This document shows positions 4,038-41,041 of a stretch of 64,000 nt of DNA, in pieces. Below the pieces are notes generated by a model, which was given only the letters and a program-made list of their open reading frames with translations, had not been told where the DNA came from and made no database searches. Numbering within the stretch: the first letter of the stretch is position 1; each line of letters opens with the position of its first letter. The stretch comes from Rhizobiales bacterium 62-47 (GTDB lineage: Bacteria > Pseudomonadota > Alphaproteobacteria > Rhizobiales > Xanthobacteraceae). A program made the translations under genes and the position numbers. The stretch lies in contig MKVX01000013.1 of the NCBI GenBank assembly GCA_001899255.1, positions 248,001 to 312,000 of the forward strand. The letters are read 5' to 3'.

Positions 4038-4133
4038 GCAAAGAGCCTGAACGATCGGTCGATGTCCGGCGATTGCCACATTTCGCAGGCAAGGCCAGTG
4101 ACGACTATCGAAGCCAGCGAACCGGAAAGTGGT

Positions 4134-4544
4134 ATGAATTTTCAGCAAACCCATCGTGCCGTCGTCGCGGCAGCGCTGCTCTGCATCGGCCTTTGTCCGA
4201 ATGGAGCGAGCGCCTCCGAGCAGTTTCCTTTCGGGCTCGAGATGACGCTCGACGTGGCGCCGAAGCCGGGCTCGAAGCGCATCCCGAATCTGGAGATCGG
4301 CGATCGCGGCGAAGTGCAGCTTGAACTCTGGTGCAAGGGCGGCGAGGGGCAATTCTCGGTCGCGGGCAACACCGTGGTGTTTGTCGCCGGCGCGATGCAG
4401 GATCGAGCTTGCGCGCCGGAATTGGCGGCGGCCGACGATGCGCTGGTGGCGGCCCTGAGTGCGGCGACCAACTGGACGCGGCAGGGCGACTTCGTCTCGT
4501 TTACCGGCAGTACGCCGCTACGCTTTCATCTCAACACCAATTGA
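4134..4544 (+). CDS. Secreted small protein with a META/HslJ-like domain
   Basis: The 136-residue product has a clear Sec signal peptide (MNFQQTHRAVVAAALLCIGL then a cleavage site after GASA, about residue 28). The mature part has a conserved Cys pair (LWCKGG and DRACAPEL) and ends in SFTGSTPLRFHLNTN, the hydrophobic strand pattern of META-domain (HslJ-type) proteins. Start 4134 is preferred over an in-frame ATG at 4062 because it puts the signal peptide at the N terminus. Its last 27 bases overlap the convergent oxidoreductase gene. Its function is unknown; the META assignment is tentative. Confidence 0.65.
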   Translation: MNFQQTHRAVVAAALLCIGLCPNGASASEQFPFGLEMTLDVAPKPGSKRIPNLEIGDRGEVQLELWCKGGEGQFSVAGNTVVFVAGAMQDRACAPELAAADDALVAALSAATNWTRQGDFVSFTGSTPLRFHLNTN

Positions 4545-6026
4545 GATGTCTGCCGCTTCGGCGTCGGCGAGGATCATGTCGGCGCAGGCGCCGCCGGCCT
4601 GCACCGCGCCGGTGAACCCTCCACTGCCGGCATAGGCCGACGCGAGATACAGCCCTGCAATCGGCGTGCGCGGCGAGCGGCCGGATGCCGGCGCGAAGCC
4701 ATAGACCGCGCCATGCGGTGCGTTGAGATATTGCCGGACCGACTGTGCGGTGTTGAATGTCGATGCAACGATCGCATCGGCCAAGCCGGGATAGTGACTG
4801 TCGAGATAGTCGACGAGAGCCGCCTGCCAACGGGCGCGCTTGCTGCGGTAACTGTCGGGATCCGGCGAAGTCCAGTTCGCCAGATGATCCGGTGCGACCA
4901 CCGATAGAACGTAAGGCGGCGCGGGGATGCCCGACGCGATCGCGTCATAGTCGACAATGGCGAGCGGCGGCATGCGCCCGTTCGGGAGTTCGGCCATCAG
5001 GCGTGTACCGTCAGCGTAATCTGTCAATCGCTGCATCCAGTCCGGTAACAATTGTGTCGAATAGCTGGTGATGCCGAATTCGCGCGGCGGTCGCTTCAGT
5101 CCAAGTGTGAGAGCGAACAACGATATCGACGGTTTCTGCTGCGCGTAGGCTTGCGTCAGCTTTTCCGCCACCGGCGCGGGAGCCAATGAAGTCAGCACGG
5201 CTGGAGCGGCATTGCTCACCACGCGTTCGCACGTCACTGTCTGCGGGTCGCTGCCGTCGCGCGCCGTATGGGTCACCGTCGCGCCGATGCGCGTGCCGCT
5301 GGCGCCGATGTCGATGTGGCTGACGACGCGACGTACAAGTACGTGCCCTCCGGCGGCTCGAACTGCTCGCGCCAGCGCGCTCGAGAGCCGTTGCGATCCG
5401 CCCTCGATGAAGCGGCCGCCGCTCAACAGATAGCGGCCCTGGGCGACGGCAAACTGCTGCCAGCCCAGCGTCGCCGGATCGTCGTGATAGTAGGACAGGT
5501 TGGCGGCAAGCGCGCACTTGACGGCTTCACGATCGCCAAACACCTGATCGAATTTTGCCGCCAGCGAGAGCGCCGGCTCAGTGCGTGGCGAGGCGTCAAC
5601 TGCCGCGCCATTAGTCGCCATTCGCTGCATCTCTTGCAGTACGTGTTCGATCCCGGAACGCGCTTCGGGAAAGCGTTGTGTCAGTGCGGCGAGAGCTGCC
5701 GTAAAGTTGTCGGGCAACACGAAGGGGTGCCGTAGCGGCCCGCCGCGCACTTCATAAAAATTGCCGGACGGGATCCATTGCACGGCGTCCAGCACCCCGG
5801 CGCGGCCGAGGATGTCGTGCTTGGGGTCTCGCGGACTTTGTGGATTGCTGGTTTCGTGCAGCGAACCTTCGACGAACAGATCGCCGACCTTGTAGCTCGA
5901 CGCCGCGCCGCCAACCGAATTGCTACGCTCGATCACCAGCACCTTGTGGCCGGACCGGGCGAGGATCGCCGCGGCGGTCAGGCCCCCAAGGCCAGCGCCA
6001 ATGACCACGACGTCGTAAACTGTCAT
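4518..6026 (-). CDS. FAD-dependent phytoene desaturase-like oxidoreductase
   Basis: The 502-residue protein starts with a Rossmann FAD-binding motif VVVIGAGLGG (residues 6-15) followed by the dinucleotide-binding Glu in LVIERSNSVGG. It ends with a second FAD-contact motif GLYLASAYAGSGGFTGAVQAG. This layout is that of the CrtI/NAD(P)-amine-oxidoreductase family (phytoene desaturase, CrtO ketolase and RetSat-like proteins). No carotenoid genes lie nearby, so a carotenoid substrate is not implied. It is a single gene, convergent with and overlapping the META-domain gene by 27 bp. Confidence 0.8.
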   Translation of the reverse strand: MTVYDVVVIGAGLGGLTAAAILARSGHKVLVIERSNSVGGAASSYKVGDLFVEGSLHETSNPQSPRDPKHDILGRAGVLDAVQWIPSGNFYEVRGGPLRHPFVLPDNFTAALAALTQRFPEARSGIEHVLQEMQRMATNGAAVDASPRTEPALSLAAKFDQVFGDREAVKCALAANLSYYHDDPATLGWQQFAVAQGRYLLSGGRFIEGGSQRLSSALARAVRAAGGHVLVRRVVSHIDIGASGTRIGATVTHTARDGSDPQTVTCERVVSNAAPAVLTSLAPAPVAEKLTQAYAQQKPSISLFALTLGLKRPPREFGITSYSTQLLPDWMQRLTDYADGTRLMAELPNGRMPPLAIVDYDAIASGIPAPPYVLSVVAPDHLANWTSPDPDSYRSKRARWQAALVDYLDSHYPGLADAIVASTFNTAQSVRQYLNAPHGAVYGFAPASGRSPRTPIAGLYLASAYAGSGGFTGAVQAGGACADMILADAEAADISIGVEMKA

Positions 6027-6141
6027 CTCAACTTTCGCCTTGTAAGCTTGATCGGAAGTGGGCGCGGGACTGCCGCGGAATCAGATGTGCTGCGATCAAC
6101 GTGTCATGTTTGCCACGGGAGTGGTTCGACAGGCATCGCAA

Positions 6142-7332
6142 CTATTTCCAGGCCGAATTTTCGACGTCCCAGCGCTGACCCTTGAAGTCCTTGGCGAGCG
6201 CATCGACGATGCCGTAATCGTCACCTTGATCGCTCTCCTCGTCATCGGGTGAATTGTCGATCAACTTGAGCTTCTCTCCTGCGGCTTCGTCGATCGTGGT
6301 GATCGAAGGAGCACTGATCCAGAGCATGAGGTGATCGGCGTTCAACGGCCTGTCGGGAGCGACGAGGGCATTGAGCTCAATGACATCGGTGAGTGCGAGC
6401 GAAGGGAACGTCTCGCTATCGCGCTTCAAGGTCAAGGTCAGCTTGCCGGTGTTTTCGTTCCAGCGCGACGATGCGAGCTTGGCGGAGAAGGTCTTCGCTG
6501 CGACAGCCGCGATGGAAGATGCCAGCTTGTCGCGGTTCAGCGTGGCGCCGTCGCGCCAGCCCGATGCGGAAAAGCGGATGGTGCGGTCCATGTCCACGGC
6601 GCCGCTGGTCCAGCCGGCGCTGGCGACTCCCGGAAAGGATCTTACCTTCGTGATCAGCGCGGCGGCGCGATCCGGATCGACCGCGAGGTTGATGGTCATC
6701 TTGCCGCTGCGTAGCGCTTCGCACGAGGCGGTCAGGCTGCCGAGCGTCACCTCGACGTTCTGGCCCTTGAGGGATTTGAGGAAGTCGGCGGCGCTGTCGA
6801 GCGCCACTTTCACGGCGACTGCTTCCGGCGAAACCTCGGTGAAATCCTTCGGTGCAACCGAGATGCCGTCGTCGGTTGTCTGGGTTTCCAGATATTCCTT
6901 CTCGCTGAGATCGGAATTGTCGGTGGAGACCACGTTGGTCAACGTCTGGCCGACACGGATCTGCCCCTTGAACTCGACGGTATCGCTGGTCTGCCTCCGC
7001 GTCAGGTTGACCGACACCGGCAACTTGTCGCCGAGGCTTTGCGTCGTGCCGGTCATGGTCTGGCCATTGACCGCGAGGTTGACGACGAAGCGATCCTTGC
7101 GGTCGGAACCTCGCGCAGCAGGATAGCAGACATCGAGCACCGCGGATGTCACGGTCTTGCCCTGATAATTCTCCTTCAGGACGACATCGGCGTTGCCATC
7201 CATCAATCCGTCGATGGAGGTGAAGTAGCGCGGTTCATTCCCGGCCGGCAGTTTGGCGGTATTCTTCTGGGCGAGGGCCAGGTCAGGCGAAGCTACGACG
7301 ATGCCGAGCAGGCAAACAAGGATTGCGCGCAT
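6142..7332 (-). CDS. Secreted conserved hypothetical protein
   Basis: A 396-residue protein starting MRAILVCLLGIVVASPDLALAQ, a good signal peptide with cleavage near residue 22. The reading frame extends 40 codons further upstream, but only this start places the signal peptide correctly. The mature protein contains two Cys (LDVCYPAA and LTASCEAL), long stretches of beta-type alternation and an acidic patch near the C terminus (DNSPDDEESDQGDD). I do not recognise a domain. It lies downstream of the groEL terminator, so it is separately transcribed. Confidence 0.7.
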   Translation of the reverse strand: MRAILVCLLGIVVASPDLALAQKNTAKLPAGNEPRYFTSIDGLMDGNADVVLKENYQGKTVTSAVLDVCYPAARGSDRKDRFVVNLAVNGQTMTGTTQSLGDKLPVSVNLTRRQTSDTVEFKGQIRVGQTLTNVVSTDNSDLSEKEYLETQTTDDGISVAPKDFTEVSPEAVAVKVALDSAADFLKSLKGQNVEVTLGSLTASCEALRSGKMTINLAVDPDRAAALITKVRSFPGVASAGWTSGAVDMDRTIRFSASGWRDGATLNRDKLASSIAAVAAKTFSAKLASSRWNENTGKLTLTLKRDSETFPSLALTDVIELNALVAPDRPLNADHLMLWISAPSITTIDEAAGEKLKLIDNSPDDEESDQGDDYGIVDALAKDFKGQRWDVENSAWK

Positions 7333-7453
7333 TGCAGTTTTCTCGCCGATGGTTAGAGCGTGAGGGCAGCGGACGCTGCTACATATGTTTCGGTTTCGCG
7401 CTCCGATAGCCTGAAACAGGGCCGAGGAAGCAGAAACCTCATGCAAAAGCAAG

Positions 7454-7475
7454 AAGGCCGCCCAAAGGCGGCCTT
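7454..7475 (-). terminator. Terminator of the groES-groEL operon
   Basis: A 9-bp perfect stem (AAGGCCGCC and GGCGGCCTT around a 4-base loop) lies 26 bases past the groEL stop codon. Read leftwards it is followed by the T-rich CTTGCTTTTG. Confidence 0.75.
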
Positions 7476-7500
7476 CCGTGGTCGAATGAGGCTGGCGGGA

Positions 7501-9150
<1,650 letters not shown>

Positions 9151-31816: not shown

Positions 31817-34003
31817 TTAGTGGCCCATGCCGTGTTCGACGACACCGTTGTAGATGTCCGGATTGGGCTCGCCTTCCACCACCAGCATGCCGGCCAACCC
31901 GCGTTCGGCGCGCGACAGAGCATGATCGACGATGGTGTAGCCGCCCGGCACGTCGAGCTTGAATTCGGTGATCACCGCGCCGCCCGGCGGCACCGTTACG
32001 GTCTGGATGCCTTCGAGCGGCGGCGTCATCACGCCGCCGAGGTTATAGACCTTGTCGAAGATCTCACCGATGACGTGGAACGACGAGGTGAAGTTTGGCC
32101 CGCCGACACCGAAGTACAGCCGCACCGTCTCGCCGACCTTGGCGTGCAGCGGATGCAGCTTGGTGATGGCGCCGACCGATCCGTTGAACACGAAATATTC
32201 CGGCTTCTCGGCGAGCAGCTTCTCGACGCTGAACTCCTGGCTACCGCGCTGACCGTAGGGCGCATCGGTATAGATCTCGCCCTGCATGACGTAGAACTCA
32301 TGATCGACCGGCGGCAGACCTTCCTCCGGCTCCACCAGAATGAGGCCGTACATGCCGTTGGCGATGTGCTCGGCGACCATCGGCGTGGCGCAGTGATAGA
32401 CGTAGAGCCCCGGCTTGAGCGCCTTGAAGCTCATCGACTTCTCCTTGCCGGGATCGACCTGCAACGCGGCTGCGCCGCCGCCGGGACCGGTGGCGGCATG
32501 GAAGTCGACCGAGTGAATCATGTTGCTCTCGGCGGCGTTCTTCAGATGCACATCGACGGTGTCGCCGACGCGGACGCGCACGAACGGACCCGGCACCTTG
32601 CCATTGAAGGTCCAGTAGCCGAATGTCGTGCCTTCGGCGAGACGGCCCTCCATCTCCACGGTCAACAGATCGAGCCGCACCGTTTTCGGATCGCGCTTGC
32701 CGATCGGCGGCGGCAGATCGGTCGGCGGCCGCGAGATGTCGGCCTCGACCGTCACCTGCGCCGATGGTGTCGCGGTGACAAGGAACTGGCCTTCCATGCC
32801 GGCGAGACGATGGCCCGGCACGTCGCAGTAGTAGAGGAAGTCGCCGGCCTTGCCGGCGCGGAATACGATGCTGGTGCTGGCGCCTTTGTTGATGACGCGC
32901 GGCGAGCGCGCATCCTGATCCGGGAAGACGATGTCGTGCTCGGTACCTTCGCCGTTGATCAATGTCACCTGCACCACCTGTCCTTCGACCGCGGTCAGGA
33001 TCGGATTGACCTTGCCGTCGATGGTGCCGCCGACGCCGAGAAACACCATGCGTCCCTCGGCGATACCCGAGCGCAGCGTGTATTTGGCATCCGACAGATA
33101 CGCCGTGACCGGACGCGCGGGCGCTTGTGCCGCCGGCGGAGTCGCTGCGGGCGCTGGTGCAGCAGCCTGGGCGGCAGGCGCGGCAGCCGCGGGAGCAGCA
33201 GCACCGGCGCTGGCCGAACCGGCGAGGAACGCGATCACGTCGGTGCGGTCAGCATCGGTCTTGAGGCCGGGGAACGGCATCTTGTTGCCGGGCACCACCT
33301 TTTGGGGATCGAGCAGATAGGCGTCGAGCTTTTCCGGAGTCCAGGTGATGCCGCTCTGCTTCATCGCAGTCGAGAAAGTATAATTCGGCACTTCGCCGGC
33401 CTTCGTTCCGACGATGCCGGCGAGGCTTGGCCCCAGCAGATTCTTGCCCGGCTCCATCGAGTGGCAGGCCTGGCACTTCTTGAACACCTGGCGGCCGTGG
33501 GTGACGTCGCCTTCGACACCGGCAGTTGCCGGCGCGGCTGCGGCCTTCGGTGCGGCAGGCGCTGCCTGCGCCATTTTCTGCATCGCGGCCATGTCGTGTC
33601 CGTGGCTTTGCGCCGCCGGTTTCGGTGCCGCGGCCTTGTCAGCCGAAGCCGCTGCGGGCGCCGCAGGTGCCGTTGCGACAGCGGCGGTTTGCACCGGCGC
33701 TGCCGCTTTGGCGGCTGGCGCTGCGGGTTCGGCCTTGGTGGCCGGCGCCGGCGCGGCGGCCTTCGCGGCCTGTTGCGGCGCGGGTGCAGGTGCTGGCTTG
33801 GGTTGTTCCTTGGCTGCGATAGCGGCCGATACTTCGGATTTCGCCTGCGCCACCGGGTCGGCGGCGGCGGTTGGGGCGGCCGCGTTGGTTTCGCGTTGGC
33901 CTTGCGATATGCCCGCGTAGCCCACGAGCGCGAATAGGATGAGAATGCCTGCCGCTCCGGGCAACCAGTTCTTTAAATTCGAACGATCAGGGGAGGAAGC
34001 CAT
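31817..34003 (-). CDS. nirK: Four-domain copper nitrite reductase (membrane anchor, cytochrome c, cupredoxin, NirK)
   Basis: A 728-residue protein that should reduce nitrite to nitric oxide outside the cytoplasmic membrane. Residues 14-32 form a hydrophobic anchor or signal. An Ala/Pro-rich linker runs to about 160, then comes a cytochrome c domain with CQACH (177-181) and Met242. A second Ala/Pro linker (263-298) leads to an extra cupredoxin with complete type 1 copper ligands His356, Cys393, His398, Met403. The NirK core has type 1 ligands His497, Cys538, His546, Met551, type 2 ligands His502, His537, His694, and catalytic Asp500 and His643. Both electron-donor modules are thus fused to the enzyme. 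Start 34003 is preferred over an in-frame 34141. No nirV or nor genes are adjacent. Confidence 0.92.
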   Translation of the reverse strand: MASSPDRSNLKNWLPGAAGILILFALVGYAGISQGQRETNAAAPTAAADPVAQAKSEVSAAIAAKEQPKPAPAPAPQQAAKAAAPAPATKAEPAAPAAKAAAPVQTAAVATAPAAPAAASADKAAAPKPAAQSHGHDMAAMQKMAQAAPAAPKAAAAPATAGVEGDVTHGRQVFKKCQACHSMEPGKNLLGPSLAGIVGTKAGEVPNYTFSTAMKQSGITWTPEKLDAYLLDPQKVVPGNKMPFPGLKTDADRTDVIAFLAGSASAGAAAPAAAAPAAQAAAPAPAATPPAAQAPARPVTAYLSDAKYTLRSGIAEGRMVFLGVGGTIDGKVNPILTAVEGQVVQVTLINGEGTEHDIVFPDQDARSPRVINKGASTSIVFRAGKAGDFLYYCDVPGHRLAGMEGQFLVTATPSAQVTVEADISRPPTDLPPPIGKRDPKTVRLDLLTVEMEGRLAEGTTFGYWTFNGKVPGPFVRVRVGDTVDVHLKNAAESNMIHSVDFHAATGPGGGAAALQVDPGKEKSMSFKALKPGLYVYHCATPMVAEHIANGMYGLILVEPEEGLPPVDHEFYVMQGEIYTDAPYGQRGSQEFSVEKLLAEKPEYFVFNGSVGAITKLHPLHAKVGETVRLYFGVGGPNFTSSFHVIGEIFDKVYNLGGVMTPPLEGIQTVTVPPGGAVITEFKLDVPGGYTIVDHALSRAERGLAGMLVVEGEPNPDIYNGVVEHGMGH

Positions 34004-34127: not shown

Positions 34128-34141
34128 TTGCGCTGAAGCAA
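34128..34141 (-). promoter_or_regulatory. Possible FNR/NnrR-type box upstream of nirK
   Basis: TTGCG-N4-AGCAA lies about 125 bases before the nirK start and is one base from the symmetrical TTGCG-N4-CGCAA form associated with NnrR. The wider palindrome TTTGC-N6-GCAAA is perfect. It overlaps the gap next to xseA. This is a weak single-site match. Confidence 0.35.
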
Positions 34142-38728: not shown

Positions 38729-38878
38729 GCCTCGTTTCTCGTAAAAAACTCTGTTATGAGAGCGCCTTCAGCCAAGTGGATGCCAGTACTTGCGTGAAAC
38801 AGCGCCCTGATACGGTGCGCGCGCGAGCCCATCCATATCGCTCCACCTGCGATTGACGCACATTTGACGAGATCATTC

Positions 38879-41041
38879 ATGCCCCGCGATAGCGACAAAA
38901 ACAACGGCCCTCCGCGCGGCCGGCGTGACAGGCAAACCGGCGGCAAGGGCCGCTCCGGCGCACCGCGCAGCGCCGACAAGAAATTCGCCAAAAGGGGGTT
39001 CGGCGATAAGCCGGCTGGCGAGAAACGCCCCTTTGCAGGCAAGTCCGAGGGTGCCAGATCGTATGGCAAGAAGCCTTACGCGGCAGCGGGCAAGCCTTAC
39101 GCCGGCAAGCGCGATGGCGAGGCACCGCGCCGCGAGTATGGCGACAAGTCGCGCCGTGATTACGGTGACGCGCCGCGACGTGATTACGGTGACGCTCCGC
39201 GCCCGCCACGCTTCAATCGTGATGACCGCCCCGAGCGCGGCCCGCGCAAGGACTTCCGTCCGCGCGACGATCGCGGCGGCGAGAAGCGGCCCTACACGCC
39301 GCGCGAAGGCGGCGAGAAGCGTCCGTATACGCCACGCGGAGAGCGCGGTGACGCACGCCCCGCCGGGCGGTTTGGCGACAAGAAATTCGGTGACAAGAAA
39401 TTCGGCGACAAGCGCCCTTACACGCCGCGCGGCGAAGGCTTCCGCAAGGACGGCCCGCGCAAGGATTTCGGTTCGCGTGACGGTGGGCGCAGTTTCGACA
39501 AGCCTCGCGACAGCGGCTTCCGGCGCGATGACGACCGTTCGAAATTTTCGCGTGGCCCGCGCCGCGATTTCGATCAGGGGCCGGATCGCAGCAGCGAGAA
39601 GCCTTGGGAAAAGCGCGACAGCCGCGCGCGTGACGGCGGCCGAAATTTCGAGCGGCCGCGTTTCGACAAGCCACGCTTCGACCGGCCACGCGACGATCGC
39701 GGCGGCGAGGATCGCCCGCGTTTCTCGCGCTCGCGCGACGAGAGTTCCGATCGTGGTCCGCGCAAATTCGACAGGCCGAAATTCGATCGTCCGCGCGAAG
39801 GCCGCGAGGATCGTTCGAAGTTCAGCCGTCCGCGCGAGGATCGCGGTGCGCCGCGCCGCGACTGGCAGGAGCATCCGCGCAGCGAAGGACGCGGCGATCG
39901 TTTCGCCGAGCGCCCGCGCCGCGATAACGAGGACGAGAGCAAGATCTTCGCCAAGCGCCCGGCGTTCGGCGGCCGCGGTGCCTATCGCGAGCGCGTGCTC
40001 AATCCCGACAAGCGCATCGCGCGACCTGAACCGCGTCCGAAAAAAGCCGGCGAGCGCATCGCCAAGCTGATGGCGCGGGCCGGGCTGGCGTCGCGTCGCG
40101 ATGCCGAGGAATGGGTGACGCAGGGCCGCGTCACGGTGAACGGTCGCGTCATCAATTCGCCGGCGCTCGATGTCACCGACAACGATGTCGTGCTGGTTGA
40201 CGGCAAGCCGTTGCCGGAACGCGAGCGCACGCGGCTGTTTCTCTATCACAAGCCGCGCGGGCTGATGACGACGCATGCCGATCCGGAGGGGCGGCCGACG
40301 GTGTTCGATCATCTGCCGGAGGGGCTGCCGCGTCTCATCAGCATCGGCCGGCTCGATTTCAACACCGAGGGCCTGCTGTTGCTGACCAATGATGGTGGCT
40401 TGGCGCGCGTGCTGGAATTGCCGGACACGGGATGGCTGCGGCGTTACCGCGTGCGCGCCCACGGCGAAGTCACGCAGGCGCAGCTCAATGAATTGCGCAA
40501 CGGCGTCGAGGTCGATGGCGTCAAGTACGGTTCGGTCGAAGCGACGCTGGAGCACGACAGCGCTGCCAACGTCTGGATCGTGGTGGCGATCCGTGAAGGC
40601 AAGAACCGCGAGGTGCGCAACATTCTCGGCCATCTCGGCCTCGATGTGAATCGCCTGATCCGCGTCTCCTACGGTCCGTTCCAGCTCGGCGAGATCGCAG
40701 AAGGTGAGGTCGAAGAAGTGAAGACCCGCGTGCTGCGCGAACAGCTCGGTGATCGCGTCGCGATGTTGGCGGGTGCGGAATTCGGCCGCGCCGCCGAGCC
40801 GGAGGAGCCCGTGAAGCTCGGCCGTGACGGCACGCCGTTGCGCCCGAAGAAAAGCAAGGTCAAGGAACGCGCCAAGCGCTCCAAGATCGAGGATCGCAAG
40901 GGCCGCAGCGTTGTCGTGCAGCGCACCGGCAGCGGCGAAGCGCGCGCGCGCAATGAGGCGGAAGCGGGCGGCTTCGGCCCGCCGCGCCGCCCCAAGCGCG
41001 GCTATCACGGCAAGCGCGATCTCAAGGCGCGCGACGAGTGA
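38879..41041 (+). CDS. RsuA/RluB-family pseudouridine synthase with long disordered basic N-terminal tail
   Basis: A 720-residue protein. About residues 385-440 form an S4 RNA-binding domain (ERIAKLMARAGLASRRDAEE). The RsuA/RluB catalytic domain follows, with catalytic Asp493 in GRLDFNTEG and later KNREVRNILGHLG. This enzyme class isomerises uridine in 23S or 16S rRNA. The first ~380 residues are low-complexity Arg/Asp/Gly/Lys-rich with short repeats (RPYTPR three times, KKFGD units, RDYGDAPR units). A basic tail closes the protein. ATG 38879 is the start; a TTG 15 bases earlier is in frame. Typical RluB proteins are 250-330 residues. Confidence 0.9.
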   Translation: MPRDSDKNNGPPRGRRDRQTGGKGRSGAPRSADKKFAKRGFGDKPAGEKRPFAGKSEGARSYGKKPYAAAGKPYAGKRDGEAPRREYGDKSRRDYGDAPRRDYGDAPRPPRFNRDDRPERGPRKDFRPRDDRGGEKRPYTPREGGEKRPYTPRGERGDARPAGRFGDKKFGDKKFGDKRPYTPRGEGFRKDGPRKDFGSRDGGRSFDKPRDSGFRRDDDRSKFSRGPRRDFDQGPDRSSEKPWEKRDSRARDGGRNFERPRFDKPRFDRPRDDRGGEDRPRFSRSRDESSDRGPRKFDRPKFDRPREGREDRSKFSRPREDRGAPRRDWQEHPRSEGRGDRFAERPRRDNEDESKIFAKRPAFGGRGAYRERVLNPDKRIARPEPRPKKAGERIAKLMARAGLASRRDAEEWVTQGRVTVNGRVINSPALDVTDNDVVLVDGKPLPERERTRLFLYHKPRGLMTTHADPEGRPTVFDHLPEGLPRLISIGRLDFNTEGLLLLTNDGGLARVLELPDTGWLRRYRVRAHGEVTQAQLNELRNGVEVDGVKYGSVEATLEHDSAANVWIVVAIREGKNREVRNILGHLGLDVNRLIRVSYGPFQLGEIAEGEVEEVKTRVLREQLGDRVAMLAGAEFGRAAEPEEPVKLGRDGTPLRPKKSKVKERAKRSKIEDRKGRSVVVQRTGSGEARARNEAEAGGFGPPRRPKRGYHGKRDLKARDE

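Follow-up and report, generated by a model that had tools for sequence, protein, structure and literature searches.

The 64,000-nucleotide stretch of Rhizobiales bacterium 62-47 DNA analysed here (the window) carries a gene for a four-domain heme-cupredoxin-copper nitrite reductase (NirK), in which a cytochrome c domain and an extra type 1 copper (T1Cu) cupredoxin both precede a complete two-domain core. The layout proposed in the initial annotation is confirmed, the architecture has already been described, and the window protein is a typical representative of a class already characterised. We consider it very likely that the gene is orthologous to the one for the four-domain enzyme of Bradyrhizobium sp. 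ORS 375 and, as parts of the same reading, that its product is exported, probably tethered to the membrane, fed by a relay from the bc1 complex, and used as a low-turnover second NirK. The interest lies in the evolutionary comparison rather than in the window protein itself. The features of the locus are as follows, with the basis of each in brackets.

31817..34003, minus strand: nirK, four-domain heme-cupredoxin-copper nitrite reductase, 728 aa (translation, profiles, alignment, fold search)
33908..33967, minus strand: hydrophobic N-terminal segment, residues 13-32, likely an uncleaved signal anchor (sequence; cleavage state predicted)
33509..33904, minus strand: linker 1, residues 34-165, Ala/Pro-rich, predicted disordered (composition, pLDDT mostly <50)
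33572..33607, minus strand: His/Met cluster in linker 1, residues 133-144, candidate metal-binding patch (shuffling test; putative function)
33218..33508, minus strand: class I cytochrome c domain, residues 166-262, with CQACH 177-181 and Met242 (profiles, alignment)
33101..33217, minus strand: linker 2, residues 263-301, Ala/Pro-rich, predicted disordered (composition, model)
33098..33100, minus strand: Tyr302, at the end of linker 2, kept in 38/39 rows (alignment)
32768..33100, minus strand: extra type 1 copper cupredoxin, residues 302-412, ligands H356, C393, H398 and M403 (profiles, alignment)
31820..32767, minus strand: two-domain NirK core, residues 413-728 (profiles, PDB searches, alignment)
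34128..34141, minus strand: FNR/FixK-type box TTGCTTCAGCGCAA, 125-138 bp upstream of the ATG (pattern scan; putative regulator type)

The minus-strand frame at 31817-34003 runs from ATG to stop over 728 residues without internal stops. In Pfam, Cytochrom_C matches residues 168-261 (E 4.2e-7), and the extra cupredoxin is matched by Cupredoxin_1 at 332-397 (2.1e-9) and Copper-bind at 367-409 (4.7e-8). The NCBIfam copper nitrite reductase model TIGR02376 matches residues 422-722 with 356.3 bits, above its curated cut-off of 296.3, and the T1Cu site, the type 2 copper (T2Cu) site and the active-site Asp and His are all present. By homology, we take H497, C538, H546 and M551 to be the core T1Cu ligands, H502, H537 and H694 those of T2Cu, and D500 and H643 the catalytic residues. 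The initial annotation had read a 728-residue single chain with this domain order and these ligands, and the translation, the profile matches and a 39-row alignment agree with it. Its hydrophobic segment and two Ala/Pro linkers are likewise borne out by sequence, composition and structure model: a single hydrophobic stretch lies at about residues 13-32, with a comparable one in most relatives compared, and Ala and Pro make up 61% of the last 110 residues of linker 1. Upstream of the ATG the frame stays open as far as a TTG, which would give 774 aa. The N terminus of the close relative L002 is MASPSDRSSLKNWLPG, and this supports the ATG at 34003 as the start.

The structure model of the protein has a mean pLDDT of 72 and a pTM of 0.51, a value at which the domain packing of this monomer is not reliable. 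In the two linkers (28-160 and 267-304) most residues score below pLDDT 50; in the three folded regions most exceed 70. The alignment behind the model holds 41 sequences, namely the window protein and 40 stretches, one each from 40 of the 80 loci introduced below.

The closest characterised protein is the ORS 375 enzyme. In the fold search, the top four chains are three-domain Hyphomicrobium enzymes (63-65% identity over 409-419 columns), and the fifth, PDB 6the, is 81% identical over 299 columns with a TM-score of 0.98 by target length. The title of 6the, released in April 2020, names the core domain of the four-domain heme-cupredoxin-Cu nitrite reductase of Bradyrhizobium sp. ORS 375. When the PDB was searched with the core alone, 6the scored 568 bits over 313 residues without gaps and was the sole distinct sequence below 1e-150. 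The cupredoxin part alone gave no match at 0.001 against PDB sequences, although the full-length search does align it to the Hyphomicrobium denitrificans enzyme (HdNiR).

BrNiR, the four-domain heme-cupredoxin-CuNiR of Bradyrhizobium sp. ORS 375, is reportedly the subject of Sasaki et al., FEBS J 2021 (doi 10.1111/febs.15324). By its published description it has, like the window protein, a cytochrome c and a cupredoxin N-terminal to the NirK core. The two cores are 81% identical, both genomes also hold a two-domain nirK, and no architectural difference was found in a comparison that covers the core sequence and the published layout. Four-domain NirKs of Rhizobiales carry both the cytochrome c and the cupredoxin tethered N-terminally (PMC8301774), several Rhizobiales hold the four-domain gene plus the usual two-domain nirK, as in ORS 375 (PMC7775769), and NirK clade 1e groups the four-domain enzyme with the Hyphomicrobium enzyme (PMC10999283). 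The initial annotation had hinted that the placement of both carriers before the core departs from the usual multi-domain NirKs. This hint of novelty fails because the layout is already known and characterised, an outcome that the initial annotation had itself named as refuting and to which the 6the title, PMC8301774 and PMC7775769 attest.

Other known types differ from the window protein. HdNiR (PDB 2dv6, 6tfd, 6tfo) shares the cupredoxin and the core, with 63-65% identity over 409-419 columns, but has no cytochrome before the cupredoxin, and the window protein, which has one, is therefore not of the HdNiR type. The substrate-anchoring His27 that the HdNiR literature places just before the cupredoxin is also absent from the window protein, which has Tyr-Leu-Ser-Asp there. 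RpNiR and PhNiR have a tethered heme donor, as the window protein does, and cores 51-52% identical to its own. However, their cytochrome c is C-terminal and they lack the extra cupredoxin, whereas the window protein has no cytochrome after its core.

A scan of genome contigs kept 80 loci of 232 relatives, some of them cut short. In 38 of these other loci (L001-L038), cytochrome, cupredoxin and core lie in one frame and in the same order. A search for further cytochrome c-cupredoxin-NirK proteins, proposed in the initial annotation as a check, thus recovered 38 loci of an arrangement known from Rhizobiales. They include L008, which a contig cuts on the N-terminal side so that it starts inside linker 1, and L026, whose frame is lost late in the core, near the C terminus. 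When the window protein and these 38 relatives, which are kin rather than independent rows (the L022 and L023 cores are identical), were aligned, the heme residues C177, C180, H181 and M242 were kept in 39/39, as were the extra T1Cu ligands H356, C393, H398 and M403 and the core residues H497, D500, H502, H537, C538, H546, M551 and H643. The remaining core ligand, H694, is kept in 38/39, the exception being L026. The N termini of L024 and L028 are doubtful. In L036 and L037, only a short signal-like N terminus precedes the domains, which shows that the layout can do without the long anchored linker. A further copy, L048, is broken by a contig end.

We placed these proteins in a quick tree of 72 cores, which left out nine near-identical Stutzerimonas rows and L048, because of its contig end. 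The four-domain rows form one branch (37/39, SH-aLRT 96); L036 and L037 fall near it without resolution. Three cytochrome-bearing Chloroflexota chains stand apart, inside the three-domain Chloroflexota. A Stutzerimonas cytochrome was considered as a separate partner gene and dropped (matches of 32-46 residues, 7e-8 to 7e-6, about 740-750 bases downstream).

The Chloroflexota chains were followed in a larger set. In the class to which the L067 genome (Anaerolineaceae) belongs, 37 of 396 genomes had a match at 1e-100; the best 30 of 38 matches, together with 7 further Chloroflexota genomes, gave 34 loci (L099-L132). Four of these (L099, L100, L106 and L107) share the domain order of the window protein, cytochrome-cupredoxin-core. 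Unlike the window protein, however, the Chloroflexota cytochrome-cupredoxin-NirK chains have an extra cupredoxin without the T1 Cys and a separate position in the tree. Altogether, a CxxCH motif precedes the core in 8/34 loci, the other four being L128, L130, L131 and L132, and the heme-bearing chains come in two orders, cytochrome-cupredoxin-core and cupredoxin-cytochrome-core. None of the eight has a live Cys-His-Met loop: six have dead cupredoxins and two have no cupredoxin match. In contrast, all 26/26 hemeless loci keep a live extra T1Cu loop. Well-supported branches force two switches between heme and T1Cu, and the domain order differs between them. With just two pairs, significance is out of reach for an independent-pairs test. 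The exclusion of heme and extra T1Cu across the 34 Chloroflexota loci is thus a strong pattern and, because it rests on only two events, not statistical proof. Our literature search found a single earlier report on such chains, PMC8756737, which suspects a Chloroflexota cytochrome-cupredoxin-NirK chain of being an assembly artefact.

Several Chloroflexota NirKs have long N-terminal parts (L115, L116, L117, L118 and L063). L115 and L118 carry cupredoxins in tandem, of which the first lacks the T1 Cys, and L063 has two cupredoxin matches. L118 had been considered as a hemeless chain with a dead cupredoxin; this was rejected, the second of its tandem cupredoxins being live.

These comparisons address a disputed point, namely whether electrons are genuinely donated by the domains tethered to NirK, and the apparent heme/copper swaps in Chloroflexota suggest that they are. 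Tentatively, the tethered heme and the extra T1Cu may be interchangeable, with the Rhizobiales enzymes using an obligate two-step relay in which the His/Met patch of linker 1 would help to load or hold copper, a combined proposal that we think somewhat improbable. On this proposal, the Rhizobiales four-domain enzymes, which keep both donors (39/39), would run a relay from the heme to the extra T1Cu and on to the core. The strict keeping of both carriers in the Rhizobiales-type rows makes this order directly testable.

We hypothesize the following route in the window protein. The protein would be exported to the periplasm, and its presumably uncleaved N-terminal segment most likely keeps it tethered to the inner membrane. 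There, the bc1 complex, the presumed source, would hand electrons to the cytochrome domain, which is of the c550/CycA kind, and the long disordered Ala/Pro linkers would let cytochrome and cupredoxin dock. Electrons would then pass from the heme to the extra T1Cu, the core T1Cu and T2Cu, a proposed order for carriers that are themselves shown, and nitrite would be reduced to NO at T2Cu. The cytochrome domain matches the c550 CycA model at 1.8e-25, which is below that model's cut-off, and a c550-like domain 52% identical to it is encoded elsewhere in the same genome. In B. diazoefficiens, CycA carries electrons from bc1 to NirK, according to PMC6710368. The best matches of the cytochrome domain include cytochrome cy structures, with other class I cytochromes scoring equally, and membrane-bound cytochrome cy has a similar succession of anchor, Ala/Pro linker and class I cytochrome. 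We presume that the window linkers are also like those of cytochrome cy. The suggestions of the initial annotation that the linkers let the donors swing and that the protein sits near bc1 are compatible with the modelled disorder of the linkers and with the hydrophobic segment.

Self-contained electron delivery, which had also been proposed at the outset, is plausible, but not simple. Tethered CuNiRs are reported as slower, with no gain in activity from tethering; according to PMC12117333, the extra domains brought no increase in activity and may have lowered it. A table in that review gives 9.38 nmol/s for the four-domain enzyme vs 1.67 nmol/s without the cytochrome. The extra T1Cu lies about 24 Å from the core T1Cu in HdNiR crystals (PMC7201279), and pulse radiolysis, as cited in the literature on tethered CuNiRs, indicates that the extra T1Cu passes electrons on when nitrite is present. 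The reported slowness of tethered enzymes and this gap in the crystals speak against a simple relay. Next to the classical two-domain NirK, the four-domain protein probably serves as a regulated second nitrite reductase of low turnover.

The same observations bear on a different role, in which the tethered domains act as a brake or sensor that holds the core in a low-active state and gates the substrate, with soluble donors mostly feeding the core T1Cu. The ORS 375 enzyme and other tethered CuNiRs, with no gain or a loss of activity reported, would fit such a role. So would Tyr302, which closes linker 2, is present in 38/39 aligned rows and adjoins the site of the Hyphomicrobium substrate-anchoring His27, and the gatekeeper Tyr that the linker of the Ralstonia enzyme holds. 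A pure brake would, however, have no need of the four heme and four extra T1Cu ligands found in 39/39 rows, the heme and extra T1Cu of Chloroflexota seem to replace each other as interchangeable donors would, and the rate in the review table falls after removal of the cytochrome. We therefore regard the brake or sensor as possible and rather unlikely compared with electron donation by the tethered domains.

The linkers themselves differ in composition. His accounts for 105/3987 residues in linker 1 vs 5/1642 in linker 2. A His/Met pattern, picked after viewing the sequences, occurs as a cluster in 33/37 linker-1 rows (L036 and L037 having been dropped beforehand) vs 13.2 expected when each linker is shuffled. 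The cluster is possibly a copper-binding patch; a keyword search of the literature found no matching paper.

Upstream of the gene, an FNR/FixK-type box was sought with a pattern also picked after viewing the sequences. With start codons assigned by rule, the box lies within 400 bases upstream in 17/36 relatives having enough sequence, vs a Markov mean of 1.14 and maximum of 5 (200 draws) and a whole-locus density of 0.05 per 400 bases. It is missing in the other 19/36, near relatives L004 to L007 among them. The 34128-34141 palindrome overlaps the TTG of the longer 774-aa open frame.

The box is suggestive of a gene controlled by low oxygen, like those of respiratory enzymes, and so speaks against a further view of the enzyme, in which it serves mainly in NO signalling or nitrite detoxification and not in respiration. 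The gene content of the source assembly (4.9 Mb, given as 100% complete) points the other way: the three PF00115 heme-copper oxidase matches are two aa3-type oxidases and one cbb3-type, with no NO reductase among them, NosZ and NapA gave no match over the cut-off, and there is one NnrS gene. With a NirK and these absences, the organism looks like a partial denitrifier from nitrite to NO, a reading in which each absence rests on single family models. We consider a main role in signalling or detoxification doubtful, and retain the low-turnover, bc1-fed nitrite reductase as our reading.

The second NirK of this genome is a classical two-domain protein of 375 aa, nearest to 8r8s and 6thf; 8r8s and 6zas (sequence same as 6thf) are Bradyrhizobium two-domain enzymes. 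In the source genome (contig C18, about 567676-568653, locus L081), the protein encoded after this classical nirK has 297 aa and matches several NCBIfam models, each below cut-off; by its position it could be nirV. Within the family, 72/296 genomes, the source genome included, have a NirK match at 1e-60. Judged by frame length and not by domains, 12/27 genomes with a long-frame NirK (at least 597 aa) also have a full classical one. A two-domain companion gene is perhaps not a defining trait of the BrNiR type.

An artefact, in which an assembly error or frameshift fused separate genes, has practically no chance of being correct, since nothing in the window speaks for it, 38 other loci carry all three parts in the same order in one frame, and a NirK match falls in an open frame of at least 597 aa in 27/296 family genomes (by frame length, not by domains). 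What frame breaks look like is illustrated by L026 and by the Acidicaldus locus L050, where cytochrome and cupredoxin-NirK occupy two overlapping frames (4090-5418 and 5225-6697), either through a real split or break or through a sequencing error.

The nirK neighbourhood is weak evidence for function. Of the 80 loci, some of which are truncated, only L005 has xseA, purD and the hydrolase all together near nirK; L006 and L007 have xseA with purD. In L034, the four-domain gene (5965-8208) has directly upstream of it one for a two-domain NirK (4514-5860) that belongs to the same broad class, and contig 309 of genome G109 holds a similar pair. Finally, a 725-aa open frame in the window (38864-41041) has a very long N-terminal half rich in Arg, Asp, Gly and Lys, followed by an apparent pseudouridine synthase.
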